NCBI GenBank assembly: GCA_030432875.1
Contig: JAUILP010000002.1
Span: 1-64,000, forward strand
Source: Oligoflexia bacterium
GTDB taxonomy: Bacteria > Bdellovibrionota_B > Oligoflexia > Oligoflexales > JAGOVF01
DNA length: 64,000 bases
Reading direction: 5' to 3'
A program made the position numbers and the translations under genes. Under the pieces are notes generated by a model that did not search any database, was not told where the DNA came from, and was given only the letters and a program-made list of their open reading frames with translations. Shown here piece by piece: positions 3,073-35,730 of this stretch. The stretch's first letter is position 1. Each line of letters starts with the position of its first letter.

Positions 3073-4836
3073 GTGGGAATCGAGCAGATTATTGGTCAGC
3101 CAGCGGTAGCTATCATTGTACTTCTGGGTGCCCTGATTTTTTTTCATGAACTAGGTCATTTCATCGTCGGACGTCTTTGTGGCGTGGGTGTTGAAATTTT
3201 TTCGATCGGCTTCGGCCCTACCCTTCTGAATATAAATTATAAAAATACCAGCTATAAGCTCTGTCTTATTCCTCTCGGGGGATATGTAAAATTCGCGGGA
3301 AGTCTTAGCGAAGAGCCTGTTTCCGAAGTTTTTTATGGAAAGGAATTTTTCGCGGCATCGCGTTTAAAACGAGCCGCTATAATTGCGGCAGGACCGGGAG
3401 CAAATTTTTTGCTTGCGGTTGTTTGTTATACTTTCATCGCCCATGATGGCATTCCTCAGTTTCCTGCTTATATCGGTCAGGTGCGTTCGGGGAGCCCAGC
3501 GGATCAGGTGGGTATAGAGTCACAAGATGTTGTGGTCTCAATCAATGGGAAAATGATTTCTTATTGGAGTGAACTTCAGGAAACCATAGCGCTGTCTCCA
3601 CCGAATAGTGATCTCAACCTAACGGTAAGTCGCGATAATCAGCCGCTGGACTTTGTTATCAAACCGAACACGAGCGAAGTTGAAGATGAAATGGGGAAAA
3701 AACAGCAGCAGAATGTCATTGGTGTTGGCTTAGAATATATACTGCCTATTTTGACTGTCACTGAGGATTCGCCCGCCTTTAACGCGGGCCTTCGGACAGG
3801 CATGCTTCTAGAAAGTGTCACTTTTGAAAATGGCACCCTAAAAAAAATAACCAGTAGTGATGAGATTTTTATAGCACTGGGCGAAGCAGAGAAAAGCGGT
3901 AGTCCCCATCTTGTTTTTACGGTAAGCGCGCCCGCGATAGGTGATGAACAAAAGGACCCTAATGCAGAAGAAAAATTGGCCGTCAAAGGGAGTCAGCAGG
4001 ACATCGGCCTGGATTTACTTGATCGGGCAGAGGGCGTGGCTCAAGCTGAATTGACATCGAAAGCTAGAGGCAGGGAGCTTGCGACTCTTTTGGGGATTAG
4101 TGATAGTCAACTAACCATCAAATCTATCGCCTCCGAAGACCTAAAGTCGCTTCTTAAGCCTAATGACCGTCTTATCCGCTTTAATGAAACTTTGCTAGAT
4201 GACATTTATAGTTTGGCGCATGGGTTTGAAACCGCGGAAAAGGCGAGTGCGAATATTGAAATTCTTAGAGGGGGTGAAGTCCTCAAGCTAACCGTCCCTT
4301 TGCAAAGCTATGAAGTGCAAAAGGTAAGCGGAAAGGCTTTGGCCTATTATTTGGATGTCCAAATGCTCGGGAGTCGCAAAGCGCCTGAGGTTATTTTGCA
4401 AAAATTTGGGGGGATCTTTGGGGCTTTTCAATTTAGTCTTATACAAACCGGCAAGCATGCCGGAATGATTGTGGGTGGCATTTATAATTTGATCATAGGC
4501 AACATGCCTCTTAAGGCCCTTGGTGGCCCCATGATGATTGCTAAGGTGGCCGGAGATAGCGCTAAAATGGGATGGAAGTCTTATCTTGGTACCATGGCTT
4601 TGATTAGCATCAATTTAGGCGTCATAAATCTGTTTCCGATTCCGGTGCTCGATGGAGGGCAGTTACTGCTAATTGCTGCGGAAGCCGTGAAACGGCGGCG
4701 CTTAGAGCCAAAAGCTGTAGAAAATTTTCAAAAAATTGGCTTTGTCCTTTTGTTTTCACTTATCATACTCTCTCTTTACAATGATTTAAGCCGTTTTTGG
4801 GCTTCAATGCTCGCAGGCATTAAGGATATGTTTTAG
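3073..4836 (+). CDS. rseP: RIP metalloprotease RseP (site-2 protease) with expanded PDZ region
   Basis: Membrane zinc protease that cleaves anti-sigma factors and remnant signal peptides inside the membrane. The zinc motif HELGH is at residues 25-29 in the first TM segment, and the third ligand region NLFPIPVLDGG is at 519-529 in a C-terminal TM segment. Between them lie PDZ-like segments at about 133-200 (SGSPADQVGI), 222-285 (DSPAFNAGL) and a more diverged 335-415. At 587 residues it is clearly longer than the usual 420-460; the excess is in the periplasmic PDZ part. The start is GTG at 3073, 3 nt after the cdsA stop, with AAGGGG overlapping the end of cdsA. A natural substrate candidate in this window is the membrane-anchored anti-sigma-like protein at 31155, which is inference only. 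Confidence 0.95.
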   Translation: MGIEQIIGQPAVAIIVLLGALIFFHELGHFIVGRLCGVGVEIFSIGFGPTLLNINYKNTSYKLCLIPLGGYVKFAGSLSEEPVSEVFYGKEFFAASRLKRAAIIAAGPGANFLLAVVCYTFIAHDGIPQFPAYIGQVRSGSPADQVGIESQDVVVSINGKMISYWSELQETIALSPPNSDLNLTVSRDNQPLDFVIKPNTSEVEDEMGKKQQQNVIGVGLEYILPILTVTEDSPAFNAGLRTGMLLESVTFENGTLKKITSSDEIFIALGEAEKSGSPHLVFTVSAPAIGDEQKDPNAEEKLAVKGSQQDIGLDLLDRAEGVAQAELTSKARGRELATLLGISDSQLTIKSIASEDLKSLLKPNDRLIRFNETLLDDIYSLAHGFETAEKASANIEILRGGEVLKLTVPLQSYEVQKVSGKALAYYLDVQMLGSRKAPEVILQKFGGIFGAFQFSLIQTGKHAGMIVGGIYNLIIGNMPLKALGGPMMIAKVAGDSAKMGWKSYLGTMALISINLGVINLFPIPVLDGGQLLLIAAEAVKRRRLEPKAVENFQKIGFVLLFSLIILSLYNDLSRFWASMLAGIKDMF

Positions 4837-29530: not shown

Positions 29531-30547
29531 TTATCGGTTAAGGGGTGGGGAAGTAATAGTTTGAATCCAATCATAGTATTCAGAGTCTCCGATAAAAGAA
29601 TAGAGACTAAAACCACCTTCACACAGCTCTCGTTCGCGCTGTTCTTTAGTCAAGGATTCGGTTATTGTGACCGGAATTTCAGATCCCCACAATACCCCTA
29701 CAAGATACCACTCTAAGCTACCGTCATTATCACCATCAACAAAAGCATAAAGAGGACCTCCAGAATCTCCAGAGCAAGTACCTCCATCTGAAGAGGTAAA
29801 CTCGCCAGAAATAGCATCTTTTTCCAAAGGTTCTGCGTCCCTTTTTTGCACGACTATTATAGCCTTATAGCATGGGAGCTTTCTAGTAGGAAGGCAGGGT
29901 TCATCAGGAGCCAATCCAAGGTCATGGATGTTATTTCGGTATTCGACTTTTTTAACATCTAGCCCTTGCCATAATTTCTCCGAATTGGGCTGATCAAAAA
30001 ATAGCCGCCCAAAACCAGAGGCTTTTAGAATAGTATCATCCTTGATGGTCTCAAGATTTCGTAAAATTGGCAATTTCACATAATTAAGCGGTGAGGTCCC
30101 ATCTAAATTAACTAGGGCAACCTCGTAATTTGGTTGTGGGTCAATGCCACCATTTAGAGACCTATCTTTTTTTGTCCAAGATTTAAAAACATTCAGGGGT
30201 TCTTTAACTCTTAAGTATTTATTCCTTTTTTTTGCAATTGTGGTTCCATAATCAGGGAAATTTATTGCGAAATCCAAGGGGCTTTTTAAGCGTAGTGACA
30301 GCGTATTTCTTATACAATGAGTTGCTGTAATGACCCAATTATTTTCTATCAATGCTCCACTGCAGAACCCCGGATTTCCGATCGATGTACTCACAATTTG
30401 AACAGTATTACGCAATCCTGGATGATCCTTGGCCAAAGGCGAATTACTCCCATAACCATTATGTATTTTTCCAGAACTATAAGGATTAGAGAATTGACAT
30501 GATGATAAGAATATGGCTAAAAAAATTATAAAAAAAATGTTTATAAT
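29531..30547 (-). CDS. Trypsin-like (S1) serine protease lipoprotein with non-canonical or broken start
   Basis: The catalytic triad is visible: WVITATHC (His), YEVALVNLD (Asp region) and CSGDSGGPLY (Ser). The first standard start codon (TTG 30436) would give 301 residues with no export signal. Upstream, however, the same frame continues without a stop and encodes a hydrophobic segment ending FLAIFLSSC, a good lipobox whose Cys codon is at 30497-30499. No ATG, GTG or TTG lies before it in frame. An ATT at 30545-30547 has GAGG 5 nt upstream and could serve as an AUU start. Alternatively, the ATG at 30556-30558 (MRQIL), one base out of frame, would need a single-base indel to join. I therefore extend the gene to 30547. 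Protease activity is well supported; the start is not. Confidence 0.75.
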   Translation of the reverse strand: MINIFFIIFLAIFLSSCQFSNPYSSGKIHNGYGSNSPLAKDHPGLRNTVQIVSTSIGNPGFCSGALIENNWVITATHCIRNTLSLRLKSPLDFAINFPDYGTTIAKKRNKYLRVKEPLNVFKSWTKKDRSLNGGIDPQPNYEVALVNLDGTSPLNYVKLPILRNLETIKDDTILKASGFGRLFFDQPNSEKLWQGLDVKKVEYRNNIHDLGLAPDEPCLPTRKLPCYKAIIVVQKRDAEPLEKDAISGEFTSSDGGTCSGDSGGPLYAFVDGDNDGSLEWYLVGVLWGSEIPVTITESLTKEQRERELCEGGFSLYSFIGDSEYYDWIQTITSPPLNR

Positions 30548-31154: not shown

Positions 31155-31862
31155 TTAATCCCGGAGTGGAAACGCTATACTATTACATCCCGCAATATCA
31201 CTCGCTTGCTGTTGGTGCCATCTTTTTGTCCGTACCGTACGCTGCAATTCAGCAAAGATATGATTTGGATTCAAAGATGCCATGCTAGGAGACAGCGTAC
31301 AGTAAAGTATAGCTAGGGTCTCTTTTTCACTGGAACCGGACAAAATAATGCTTCCAGGCAAAGCCGTCTTTGTCTTAGCAGGTATAATTATTTTGGCTTT
31401 GAGAACGTCTTGCCTGTTATCGAGCAGAGTGCCATCGCGTGTGTATACGGCTTCCCAAAGCAGAGATTCTTGAGGCAATAATATTTCTGTTCTTATGTGA
31501 TCGCCTTCCAGTAACTGCGCCCCAGGTTTTAAAATAGAAACGTTTTGCCCTCTCTGCCAGTAAACAGTGATCTGCCCTGAACCTTTCATCCGTAATCCTG
31601 TTTCCTGTTCCCTCTGCACAGAGGGATAATTGATATAAAAAAGCAAACTTGCGGCCAGTAAAATTCCGCCAAGAGCCGTCCACTGATGATAGGGAACCCG
31701 CGTTTTTTTTATGGGCGGTAATTTTAACGGGGGCAAAGAAAATTTTTCAGCACGTTCTAGCTCATCGCGTGCCTCCTCTGACAACTGACCCTGGGTTCCC
31801 GTCAAGATTTCTTTGTGCAAAGACAGTAGGGAACGCCTATCCAAATTGTTACCACTATTCAT
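31155..31862 (-). CDS. Membrane-anchored FecR/anti-sigma-like protein
   Basis: 235 residues with a cytosolic charged N-terminus (about 1-68), one TM helix (TALGGILLAASLLFYINY, about 71-88) and a periplasmic beta-rich part. The periplasmic segment TVYWQRGQNVSILKPG, then LLEGDHIRTEI, then TALPGSIIL, resembles the extracytoplasmic sensor part of FecR-like / DUF4384-like proteins that sit next to ECF sigma genes and caspase genes in myxobacteria (from memory, not searched). The start codon overlaps the sigma-factor stop by 4 nt (ATGA at 31859-31862), the classic sigma/anti-sigma arrangement. It should bind the sigma factor at 31859 and release it on an envelope signal. No classical zinc anti-sigma motif (HxxxCxxC) is visible. 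Confidence 0.75.
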   Translation of the reverse strand: MNSGNNLDRRSLLSLHKEILTGTQGQLSEEARDELERAEKFSLPPLKLPPIKKTRVPYHQWTALGGILLAASLLFYINYPSVQREQETGLRMKGSGQITVYWQRGQNVSILKPGAQLLEGDHIRTEILLPQESLLWEAVYTRDGTLLDNRQDVLKAKIIIPAKTKTALPGSIILSGSSEKETLAILYCTLSPSMASLNPNHIFAELQRTVRTKRWHQQQASDIAGCNSIAFPLRD

Positions 31863-32359
31863 GCCCAGATCTCCTTTTGTGCTCTCAGTATTTCTAGGGA
31901 ATGGGCCAAAGACCGAACGACAGTTTTGCGGGATACTCCCATAATATCGGCTATTTCTTCTAACGTTAAACCATCGGCTTCTTTGTAAACAAGAATTTGT
32001 CCATCCCGGGGGCTAAGTTCTTTTAATATCTTTTTGACCAGATCAACGCTGGCGAATCGGCTACTATTATCCTCGCTCATAAGGTCATCAGGCTCGATAG
32101 CATCATATTGCTGAGCGCGATATGATCCTGAACGAAGGTAATCTACACTTAAATTATGACAGGATGTATAAACCCATTTATAGGCAGAAAGCTCGGTGTC
32201 AAAATTCATTTGAGCACTCCACAATTTGGTAAAGACCGTTTGCACAATTTCTTCCGCTACAGTCTTTTTTTTGACTATATAATAGGTTTTGCTGAGGGCC
32301 AGTTTCCCTGTTTTACGGTAAAGTAAGGTAACATTGTGCTCAACTGTGCAATCAAACAT
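31859..32359 (-). CDS. ECF-type RNA polymerase sigma factor
   Basis: 166 residues with sigma region 2 (AEEIVQTVFTKLWSAQ, then YKWVYTSCHNLSVDYLRS) and sigma region 4 (LKELSPRDGQILVYKEADG, then LTLEEIADIMGVSRKTVVRS, a helix-turn-helix). No region 1 or 3, as expected for the ECF group. It overlaps its putative anti-sigma factor downstream by 4 nt and follows the Kelch lipoprotein gene by 14 nt, so it is the third gene of the caspase operon. It probably controls that operon and other envelope genes. The target promoter is unknown, and no ECF consensus was recognisable upstream of 35479. Confidence 0.9.
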   Translation of the reverse strand: MFDCTVEHNVTLLYRKTGKLALSKTYYIVKKKTVAEEIVQTVFTKLWSAQMNFDTELSAYKWVYTSCHNLSVDYLRSGSYRAQQYDAIEPDDLMSEDNSSRFASVDLVKKILKELSPRDGQILVYKEADGLTLEEIADIMGVSRKTVVRSLAHSLEILRAQKEIWA

Positions 32360-32373
32360 ATTTCACCAAAACC

Positions 32374-33846
32374 CTATTCAGGTGTATAAATGCCGCCGGT
32401 ATTTAAGCTGCGATACTCTAAGCCATTCCCACGGTCGAGACTCGTCGTGCCGCCCCAAATAATCATCTTTTCTCCGGTCCAAACGGCAGAATGCTCGAAT
32501 CGCGGATGCGGAGAATATGAATTTGCTGCGATTGGCTCCCAAGTATCGGTAACAGGATCATAAAGACCGCCATCGCCTAAAGCGATGAATTTTCCTGAGT
32601 CGTTATCAATCGTATAACCACCCCAAATCATCATTTTTGCGCCTGTCCAAACAGCCGAGTGCTTTGCTCGCGGACTGGGTGCATTGAGATTGGATATTGT
32701 TTTCCATATGCCAGTTGCTTCGTTATAAATCCGTCCGTCATGATAAACTTCGTTATCATGTGTCCCGCCCCAAATTATAGCGCTTGATCCTGTGGACACC
32801 ATGGTGAAATTCTCTCTTAGAGAGGGACTATTTTCAGTGGCGATGGTTTGCCATGTATCAGCATTGAGGTCATAAACTGCGCCTGCTGTTTTTTCTTGTG
32901 AATCCGCAAACAGCGTATCTTCGACTCCCCAAATAAGGACTTTTTCGTCAAGCAAGGTTACCGATGCTTGCTTGAGTTTCGGGGCATCTGTCGCTGATAT
33001 CCGGGACCAAACATCGGCTGCGGGATCATAAAAACTGCCGCCATTAGAAACCACGTCCCAGAGAAACATTTTATGGCCCGTCCAAAGGGCATTTTGGGTG
33101 GCATCATTCTTAGGGGCTTCTATTTCCGATATCGGCGACCATGTGTCCTGTTCCATATCGTACCGGCCTCCTACAGTGCTATTGCCCCAAACAATTACTT
33201 CTGCGCCCGTCCAGACAATGTCCTGGTCCTTCCATGCTGGTTGTTGCTCCTGAGCGATAGACTCCCAGGAATTTGTACTGGGATCAAAGACAACTTTGTC
33301 GATTACGTCATCTTGCCATGATAAGTATCTGCGATTTCCGCCCCAACGAAAAAGTTTTCCTTGTGCCCAGAGGGCTTTTGAGGCCGACGTTCTGAGGGGT
33401 GCATTGGTTAAAGATGTGGCGACCCAGCCACTTCCTGTAGGCATTAAGGCATCATCCTCTCTGGGTGCTGATAAGGAAAAATCAGCAACCCAAATATGTC
33501 CTGAGACATCGGATGTGTTGGGGGCTTCTAAACAGTCTTCAGCGTTAAAGGCAATATTGCGTTCATGCCCTGCATTAATATTATCTTCTGCCTCAATGAC
33601 GCTGCCACTTCGCAGGCGACAAACGACCTCGTGGTCGGCTACATCTCGAAATTCACCCGGCCCATAAGCTCTTCCGCGACCTTGAAAAACCCTAAAGCCA
33701 TCATAGGGAATGACAAGCTTCTCAATCTGGCAACGAAAATAACCAAAGGAAGTAGAACACTCTCCGTCTTTGTAGCCCTTATACGCGAGTTCACCGGACG
33801 AACACCCACAAAAGCCCAAAAAAAATATTATGATCAAGATTTTCAC
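32374..33846 (-). CDS. Kelch-type seven-bladed beta-propeller lipoprotein
   Basis: 490 residues, GTG start at 33846 with AAGGGAG 4 nt upstream. A very short lipoprotein signal (ILIIIFFLGFCGC) precedes a region of about 115 residues of unknown fold. Then come seven Kelch-like blades from about residue 150 to the C-terminus. Each has the pattern 'W-x-G-x-x-hydrophobic-IWGG ... YD-x-x-x-x-x-W-x-x-I': FRWGG, VIVWGN, MFLWDV, VLIWGV, AIIWGG, MMIWGG, MIIWGG. The last blade ends with TGGIYTPE, so the propeller is complete. It is 10 nt downstream of the caspase gene and 14 nt upstream of the sigma gene. It is probably surface-exposed and may bind a ligand, substrate or the caspase. Confidence 0.82.
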   Translation of the reverse strand: MKILIIIFFLGFCGCSSGELAYKGYKDGECSTSFGYFRCQIEKLVIPYDGFRVFQGRGRAYGPGEFRDVADHEVVCRLRSGSVIEAEDNINAGHERNIAFNAEDCLEAPNTSDVSGHIWVADFSLSAPREDDALMPTGSGWVATSLTNAPLRTSASKALWAQGKLFRWGGNRRYLSWQDDVIDKVVFDPSTNSWESIAQEQQPAWKDQDIVWTGAEVIVWGNSTVGGRYDMEQDTWSPISEIEAPKNDATQNALWTGHKMFLWDVVSNGGSFYDPAADVWSRISATDAPKLKQASVTLLDEKVLIWGVEDTLFADSQEKTAGAVYDLNADTWQTIATENSPSLRENFTMVSTGSSAIIWGGTHDNEVYHDGRIYNEATGIWKTISNLNAPSPRAKHSAVWTGAKMMIWGGYTIDNDSGKFIALGDGGLYDPVTDTWEPIAANSYSPHPRFEHSAVWTGEKMIIWGGTTSLDRGNGLEYRSLNTGGIYTPE

Positions 33847-33856
33847 AAAATCTCCC

Positions 33857-35479
33857 TTAAAATAAAAAATAGTCCAGGGTTACCTGAGCAATATTGGCTT
33901 TTAAAGTCTTTTTCCCATCAAAACCGTCATTAACTAAGATGCGCGTCTGACGCCACATCAGACCGAGATTAAAAGGGCTGTCAAATAGCTTTAGATTGAC
34001 TCCAGCGCCCACATCATAAACAGGCATTGTGGCTTTAAAAGTTCTCGCCGATCCCAAGGTATAGCTTCCGCCCCACTCCTGTGATTGTTGCGCTTGCCCC
34101 CCCCCAATACCAAGGAGCCAGGAGTCGCCAATTGCGGGGAAAAAACCTGTCTTTTCAAAAAATATCCATCCCATCACTTTGTATTCTTTGACCTTAGCGC
34201 TACCTTGAAAGTTAAACTCATCAGGTATGCTATGGAGCCGACTGGAGTGATAGCTCCCTTCTGCTCCTAAGCGCAAAAATGTCCCCGACCAGAATAACTC
34301 TGGGCGATAATAGAAACCAAGGCCTGCAACCTGTGCTTTTTTCTCGCGGTCTATGTATCCAGGATGTGAGCCATAAAATGCTTGTAAGAACCATTTTCTA
34401 AGCAGCTGACCTTTGGGCGTTTTTTCAGCCAAGGTCATCTCTCTCCAAACCAAATTTTGAGATGCCAGTAGATTTTGACTTTTCTTGCCTAAAAGAATTT
34501 GTCCTTCGCCGATGCGGTTTTGATCCTGAATTTTTACATCATAATTGCCGACTGGCATGCTGACTATCGTGGAAATACCCTTTTTTTTGGGATACCGAAA
34601 AATACGCAGTCCGCGATCAGAAGCAAAGGTAATCATCCCGGCTAAGTTTTTATCTAATTTAAGATTAGTGCTGATCTTTTGCGGAAAGGACATGATCACA
34701 TTGCCCTGCCCGCGCAAATCTGCGACAATTTCGGGTTTTTGCTGGCCTTGGCTAGGGAAAACTAAAGCTTGGAGCTTAGATTGGCGGTAGACATAGGCAT
34801 AAATTTCATCAATTGAAACGAGACCATCTCGGTTATTATCGGCTCTGCCATAAAGCCCTTCTACCAGATAATGACTGAAAACGCTCCCCATAATGTCGTC
34901 GCTTTCAAAGGCCGCTTCTGTTTCTGTGCTGGCGGTCAAAAAAATTGTACCGCTCGGCTCATCATGCATAATCTTCGGGATTTCAAAGCCCTTTGATGAG
35001 CGGCTAATGCCTTTGCGTGCTATAGCTCCGGCAAAACAACTATCGAGAAGAGCGACTTTGGTCTTTACTTGAACAAGTTTAAGCAGTTTATGAAGGTGGG
35101 CTTTACTGATCATGCCATCCTTTAAATGTAGACCTAAGCTATCGGCATGGCCGGAAAAATAAAATATAAATTTACTGACGCCTTGAGAGGCATTGATTTG
35201 CCGAATGAAGGCGGTTACTTTTTCATCAAAATCTTTTAGCGATATATCGACCAGGATTTTTATGGCATTAGTTTTAATTGCTCCTGCTGATTCCATGGTT
35301 TTTGCGAACCTTAGGGCATCTTTTACGGCGTATTTGAGCGGTGACAATTTAGGATCATAGGATGTGTTAGATCCAACCACAAGTACAGCCGTAGTGCTCT
35401 CAGTCTCAGAAAATACCTTACTGCTGATGAAAACGAGAAAGAAAATAATGATCCAGGTACCTAAATGATTTCTTGTCAT
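33857..35479 (-). CDS. Secreted caspase-like (C14) peptidase with EF-hand and beta-barrel-like C-terminus
   Basis: 540 residues from ATG 35479 (AGG 8 nt upstream; a TTG at 35494 is weaker). A signal peptide (WIIIFFLVFISSKVFS) leads into a p20-like caspase domain: VLVVGSNTSY, catalytic His111 in FYFSGHAD and Cys148 in LLDSCFAG. After LTASTETEAAFESDD and SHYLVEGL comes a perfect EF-hand loop (DNNRDGLVSIDE, 214-225), then an LRGQG motif at about 255. The C-terminal 200 residues are amphipathic beta-strands (FYYRPELFWSGTFLRLGAE, FNLGLMWRQTRILV) ending in YFLF, as in outer-membrane barrels. The peptidase would face the periplasm or exterior, and Ca2+ may regulate it. First gene of an operon with a Kelch lipoprotein, ECF sigma and anti-sigma. 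Specificity unknown. Confidence 0.86.
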   Translation of the reverse strand: MTRNHLGTWIIIFFLVFISSKVFSETESTTAVLVVGSNTSYDPKLSPLKYAVKDALRFAKTMESAGAIKTNAIKILVDISLKDFDEKVTAFIRQINASQGVSKFIFYFSGHADSLGLHLKDGMISKAHLHKLLKLVQVKTKVALLDSCFAGAIARKGISRSSKGFEIPKIMHDEPSGTIFLTASTETEAAFESDDIMGSVFSHYLVEGLYGRADNNRDGLVSIDEIYAYVYRQSKLQALVFPSQGQQKPEIVADLRGQGNVIMSFPQKISTNLKLDKNLAGMITFASDRGLRIFRYPKKKGISTIVSMPVGNYDVKIQDQNRIGEGQILLGKKSQNLLASQNLVWREMTLAEKTPKGQLLRKWFLQAFYGSHPGYIDREKKAQVAGLGFYYRPELFWSGTFLRLGAEGSYHSSRLHSIPDEFNFQGSAKVKEYKVMGWIFFEKTGFFPAIGDSWLLGIGGGQAQQSQEWGGSYTLGSARTFKATMPVYDVGAGVNLKLFDSPFNLGLMWRQTRILVNDGFDGKKTLKANIAQVTLDYFLF

Positions 35480-35528
35480 AAATAGACCTATCAAAAACTC
35501 AGGTTATGATGTTTTTTAGTAACGATTC

Positions 35529-35554
35529 AAAAAGCAGCGGTCTGCCGCGTTGCT
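35529..35554 (-). terminator. Terminator-like hairpin in the leader of the caspase operon
   Basis: On the minus strand AGCA(AC)GCGG, loop CAGA, CCGCTGCT, then TTTTT. It lies about 50 nt upstream of the caspase start codon, inside an unusually GC-rich block (35529-35645). It could end read-through from upstream or act as an attenuator of the operon. Confidence 0.45.
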
Positions 35555-35730
35555 ACCCGTGCTTCGCTGCTCATTTGCCTAACGTAAACTGCGCTGCGGT
35601 GCTCAGTGACGCCTAGCGTCCCAGCGCTTTTTGAGCAGTTACCTTTTTCAGGGAGCCCAAAAACTTTGGCTATTATTGATTTAAAATTAGTCTTATTTGA
35701 TTTTAGCTGGTTATTACCAAAAGCACAGCC

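Follow-up and report, generated by a model that had tools for sequence, protein, structure and literature searches.

The role of caspases in bacteria is a long-standing question, usually framed in terms of programmed death, and it is raised again by a locus in which an exported caspase is encoded beside an ECF sigma factor and a membrane anti-sigma-like protein. The locus lies in a 64,000-nucleotide stretch (the window) that is part of a 4.0 Mb draft genome of an Oligoflexia bacterium, and it forms a minus-strand operon of four ORFs: the caspase (35479-33857, starting at ATG; the ORF as called mechanically begins at 35494), a Kelch lipoprotein (33846-32374, GTG start), the sigma factor (32359-31859) and the anti-sigma-like protein (31862-31155). 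An earlier note, made from the DNA alone, had given this four-gene operon, in which two gene pairs are 10 and 14 nt apart and the third overlaps by 4 nt, and these values and the coordinates were all exact. Upstream there is a MITE-like repeat, about 125 bp long and with inverted ends (35519-35643; consensus GTAACTTCTCAAAAAGC...GCTTTTTGAGAAGTTACC; 19 matches in the genome), that ends about 40 nt from the caspase start, and therefore the operon promoter must be within this repeat, beyond it or directly below it. An Rfam search gave no matches, and no shared ECF promoter was obvious in the upstream regions, as judged by eye only; no promoter motif was found there. Downstream of the anti-sigma gene, on the same strand, lies a gene for a trypsin-like serine protease (29531-30436 and upstream), with a lipobox-like stretch (AIFLSSC) upstream of its listed start; it is possibly a member of the regulon.

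A phylum-level search of 58 genomes revealed that the ECF sigma gene adjoins the caspase gene in 21/21 testable loci, a count that excludes two further loci cut by contig ends, and that a gene for a one-TM protein lies beside the sigma gene in each; thus the linkage of an ECF sigma and one-TM anti-sigma pair to an exported caspase, as first read in the window, recurs as the same core in relatives. The genome of the window has one Peptidase_C14 gene and two PF08281 sigma genes (2-20 of the latter per genome in the search), and with the linkage recurring in relatives this adjacency is beyond chance. Gene order and strand differ among the loci, which makes the neighborhood look selected: we found caspase-X-sigma-anti in the window, L025 and L036; sigma-anti-caspase in L026-L030, L033, L037 and L040; caspase-anti-sigma in L031, L032, L034, L035, L038, L041 and L042; anti-sigma-caspase in L039; and a divergent arrangement in L024 and L086. 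The three proteins also showed mirrored divergence in their distance matrices (caspase-sigma r 0.87 and caspase-anti-sigma 0.77, with a permutation P of 2e-4 and many of the copies being paralogs within one genome; sigma-anti-sigma 0.81). Several genomes carry paralogous sets, each with its own sigma gene, seven of them in G006. The distribution is patchy, with 12-13 of the 58 genomes carrying the caspase system and the one genome of the same family as the window being without it; the named relatives that matched the caspase profile are Pseudobacteriovorax MAGs. A first contig scan with the single caspase as query gave no matches, and a second scan identified caspases of other phyla that were mostly without a linked sigma gene and without the barrel described below (at one Bacillota locus a sigma gene lies on the other strand), while plasmids yielded distant caspase domains only. 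The core module is thus the caspase, the ECF sigma factor and the one-TM anti-sigma, and the Kelch protein is outside it.

The caspase-barrel protein (540 aa; 33857..35479, minus strand) has a signal peptide (residues about 1-24), a caspase domain (30-262), a beta-sandwich (265-350) and a predicted barrel (360-540). The export in the original reading of a secreted caspase stands; the protein is however not simply secreted, as the sandwich and the predicted outer-membrane barrel follow the caspase domain. This metacaspase-like domain (34694..35392, minus strand) belongs to Peptidase C14 by its Pfam match (PF00656, E 1e-11, 45.1 bits against a curated cut-off of 21.4), its His/Cys dyad and its caspase fold. 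The dyad residues, H111 (35147-35149) and C148 (35036-35038), had been correctly named from the sequence and are invariant in 18 compared sequences, which speaks against a loss of the dyad in homologs. A first structure prediction, from five sequences, was poor; an AlphaFold2 model from an alignment of 21 sequences had a mean pLDDT of 76.7, with the caspase domain mostly >90, and Foldseek searches with it identified metacaspases, caspases and legumain with E-values of 1e-6 to 1e-8, the metacaspases at 1e-8. The protein scored 63.5 bits against caspase_w_EACC1 (NF047832), below its curated cut-off of 140. Pfam and PADLOC scans identified no SAVED, CARF or CHAT domain in the caspase, and PADLOC found no defense family beyond weak matches to the helix-turn-helix of the sigma factor.

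For the trypanosomal metacaspase TbMCA2 the proposed S1 residues are C92, D95, S156 and D211 (PMC4357240), and profile alignment together with the spacing to His and Cys identified D54, S109 and D146 as the equivalents of the last three. D54 and S109 are conserved across the family, and D146 is replaced by Ala (once by Cys) in half of it. By this alignment the caspase appears to keep the metacaspase S1-pocket residues, with a basic P1 (Lys/Arg) as its probable specificity; a lysine cut-site motif would fit this, since prokaryotic orthocaspases are described as cleaving after positively charged residues (PMC6426788). Eight residues past the catalytic Cys lies K156-G157 (35009..35014, minus strand), a candidate self-processing site, and a K/R-G/S pair occurs 6-9 residues past this Cys in 21/21 caspases; as four cyanobacterial caspases carry the same motif, it is unspecific. 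The domain also contains an EF-hand-like loop, D214-x-N216-x-D218-G219-x5-E225 (34805..34840, minus strand), a candidate Ca2+ site in which D214, D218 and E225 are nearly invariant, although the EF-hand_7 match has an E-value of only 0.068.

The C-terminal domain (33860..34402, minus strand; C-terminal residue F) is likely an eight-stranded outer-membrane barrel, to judge from the models. The AlphaFold2 model has eight long strands at residues 363-537, with pLDDT of about 40-75, and Foldseek searches with the weaker, low-confidence first model gave matches to OmpX, OmpA, PagL and NspA. The G+F+Y+W content is 30% in this domain versus 15-16% in the other two, and 16/22 members of the family end in F, W or Y; a simple alternation test of amphipathicity on the strands of the window protein alone was not significant (p 0.087). 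At other loci we observed a caspase-barrel gene that a stop splits, leaving the barrel part in a frame of its own (L041, 6670-8390), and, in the L027-L029 subgroup, a short exported protein that looks barrel-like when judged by eye and whose gene overlaps that of the caspase at the latter's end (L027 5592-6308, L028 9248-9928, L029 7496-8146). Both termini of even-stranded outer-membrane barrels face the periplasm, and for this reason the caspase domain is predicted to be periplasmic, in place of the cell-surface location proposed earlier.

The sigma factor (166 aa; 31859..32359, minus strand) contains regions 2 and 4 (Sigma70_r2, E 4e-8; r4_2, E 5e-9; TIGR02937 over its cut-off) and is short, lacking region 3, as is typical of the ECF group, and it matches ECF sigmas in the PDB. 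The 235 aa product of the gene adjoining it (31155..31862, minus strand) has a cytoplasmic N-terminal part, one TM helix by hydropathy (residues 61-77; 31632..31682, minus strand) and a periplasmic DUF4384-like domain, the layout of a membrane anti-sigma; based on this we regard it as anti-sigma-like and its binding and inhibition of the sigma factor as putative. Pfam gave no family match for it, including none to DUF4384; profile comparison placed it with the L027-L029 anti-sigmas (E 5e-6), two of which have DUF4384 matches under the cut-off (best E 2e-5; L027 25.2 versus 27 bits). Annotation as FecR was ruled out, there being no Pfam match in the protein and none to the FecR domain across the whole genome. 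In four loci a second anti-sigma-like one-TM protein adjoins the sigma factor (L032 6103-6918, L034 1878-2462, L035 4434-5072, L038 4764-5432), and all four of these second proteins contain a K-G or K-S motif. With the barrel ends predicted to be periplasmic, the caspase would share a compartment with the periplasmic domain of the anti-sigma.

In the linker that follows the TM helix of the window anti-sigma, 16 residues past the helix, lies K93-G94 (LRMK|GSGQ; 31581..31586, minus strand), the predicted caspase cleavage site. Our comparison revealed a K/R-G/S pair (Lys, once Arg) 8-26 residues past the TM in 20/21 caspase-linked anti-sigmas, the lone exception being L037 (VKDG). Shuffled 26-residue linkers had it in 9.4 +/- 2.2 proteins (P 5e-5, a value that is optimistic because the 21 sequences amount to about ten groups of related proteins and the test came after the motif had been noticed, with the window of 5-30 residues and the P2 class also selected after inspection). 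For K[GS] alone the counts were 19 observed versus 7.0 +/- 2.0 in shuffles, and the probability of K/R-G/S in windows elsewhere in the periplasmic domain was 0.35. FecR-domain and zf-HC2 proteins were unusable as motif controls, few of them having anti-sigma topology; among ten candidate anti-sigma-like genes beside non-caspase sigmas, several of them doubtful, one had the motif, and this small set is given no weight here. The caspase of L039 is the only one in which R takes the place of K past the Cys, and the site in the L039 anti-sigma is also R; given that the post-Cys K-G is found in cyanobacterial caspases too, this K/R covariation rests on one locus. We infer that the K/R-G/S pair in the anti-sigmas is the cut site expected for a caspase with basic P1.

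The fourth gene of the operon encodes a Kelch propeller lipoprotein (490 aa; 32374..33846, minus strand; Pfam Kelch E 1e-28; lipobox GFCGC), and the seven blades counted originally fit the sequence as read, with six full repeats and a seventh closed by the N-terminal strand. It had been singled out as the distinctive partner of the caspase, a view that gave way once the other loci were compared: Kelch as a conserved partner was rejected, as it occurs within the cluster only at the window, plus near one G006 copy (not in one operon), and the partner slot is taken elsewhere by an RCC1-repeat lipoprotein (L039), leucine-rich repeats (L042), CarboxypepD_reg (L033, L037) or lipoproteins without a known domain (L023, L030). 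The L039 and L042 lipoproteins have a common N-terminal region (E 1e-4) followed by different repeat scaffolds, and a stretch of the L023 lipoprotein is common to L033 (E 1e-10) and L037 (E 1e-7). Judged from these sequences, the variable lipoprotein resembles an exchangeable recognition part. Many Kelch-repeat matches were also present in G016, G020, G023 and G038, some in open frames of >1000 aa.

From the computed operon, core linkage, mirrored divergence, catalytic dyad, caspase fold, anti-sigma topology and K/R-G/S motif, and from the predicted barrel and periplasmic site of the caspase, we arrive at an interpretation to which we give about an even chance: a three-part envelope signaling module with an interchangeable surface lipoprotein, in which the caspase makes the site-1 cut in its own anti-sigma. 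The caspase would be held in the outer membrane by its C-terminal barrel, with the protease domain predicted to be in the periplasm, and a stimulus, which may be a ligand on the lipoprotein or the barrel loops or Ca2+ bound in the EF-hand-like loop, would activate it, possibly with self-cleavage after K156. It would then cut the partner anti-sigma in its periplasmic linker after K93, so that the DUF4384-like domain is lost, and an RseP-type site-2 protease and cytoplasmic proteases would complete the breakdown of the anti-sigma and free the ECF sigma factor to transcribe the operon and other genes. The RseP-type step is plausible because an M50 (RseP-type) site-2 protease gene exists in the genome (window 3073-4836). 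Points against this reading include the half of the family without D146 and the modest confidence of the barrel strands.

The earlier note had taken the opposite direction, release of the sigma factor inducing the caspase, as the main one. In its strongest form the caspase is output only: an unrelated signal frees the sigma factor, which induces caspase and lipoprotein, and the targets of the caspase are proteins of the envelope or of foreign origin. ECF sigmas commonly drive neighboring genes, the variable lipoprotein could be a substrate or inhibitor of the caspase, and the divergent placement of the caspase versus the sigma-anti-sigma pair in L024 and L086 fits a sigma-controlled caspase promoter; however, this leaves unexplained both the K/R-G/S motif in the anti-sigmas and the fixed caspase core against a varying rest, and we consider it unlikely, if the best of the alternatives. 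The topology, the motif and the fixed core probably favor the caspase as an input protease and not only a sigma-induced output; induction of the caspase by the sigma factor, as positive feedback, is plausible in addition. It is more doubtful still that the linkage reflects co-regulation only and that K-G is a structural motif opening the periplasmic domain: in the DUF4384-like group K-G does sit where the domain begins, but the motif is also found in anti-sigmas without recognizable similarity in their periplasmic domains, and its distance from the TM varies. Least probable to us is that the caspase-barrel signals by binding and not cutting, like FecA, or protects the anti-sigma, with proteolysis incidental, for although the periplasmic domain of FoxA protects the anti-sigma FoxR from other proteases (PMC11637429), the dyad and the S1 residues D54 and S109 are conserved here, unlike in pseudo-proteases.

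The reading of the caspase as site-1 protease has partial precedents. Metacaspase/sigma-70 predicted operons have been described from Myxococcus, Anaeromyxobacter, Haliangium, Sorangium, Ralstonia and Fibrobacter (Asplund-Samuelsson 2012, PMC3501461), in line with the sigma/caspase neighborhoods in myxobacteria that the earlier note mentions; like the window operon these combine genes for a C14 caspase and a sigma-70 family protein, whereas anti-sigma, barrel and Kelch are unmentioned in that text. The FecA-FecR-FecI and FoxA-FoxR-FoxI systems have an outer-membrane barrel with an N-terminal periplasmic domain, a one-TM anti-sigma and an ECF sigma, a layout predicted for the window system too, and the site-1 protease of the Fox system is unidentified (PMC11637429); the window system differs in having a small, predicted eight-stranded barrel in place of a TonB-dependent receptor (Pfam found neither such a receptor nor a signaling domain in the caspase-barrel protein), a protease in place of the signaling domain, and an anti-sigma without a FecR domain. 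In the type III CRISPR system CalpL-CalpT-CalpS, CalpL cuts the anti-sigma CalpT and releases an ECF sigma (PMC11417357); this is a dedicated protease like the one proposed here, but a cytoplasmic Lon protease with a SAVED domain, activated by cA4, for which the window system has no counterpart. With metacaspases (AtMC4/9, Yca1, TbMCA2) and orthocaspases the window caspase shares the fold, the His/Cys dyad, S1-pocket residues and probably a basic P1, and it differs from them in being exported and fused to a beta-sandwich and a predicted barrel. A literature search for caspases with anti-sigma or ECF factors did not find the arrangement described, though the main ECF reclassification paper might mention it; caspase-sigma operons are thus already known, and the barrel, the variable lipoprotein and the common cut motif were not found described in the literature searched.

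We give slightly less than even weight to the broader view that this is a new form of cell-surface signaling, in which an outer-membrane caspase acts as the transducer that makes the first cut in the anti-sigma and an interchangeable repeat-domain lipoprotein sets what is sensed. A caspase subfamily here gains a predicted substrate, bond, compartment and transcriptional read-out, which makes bacterial-caspase function testable in one experiment. If the model is true, a family of bacterial caspases would have a defined physiological substrate and pathway, the transducer itself would contain the equivalent of the site-1 protease of cell-surface signaling (PMC11637429), and caspase-type proteolysis would be an envelope-to-gene signaling step in bacteria.
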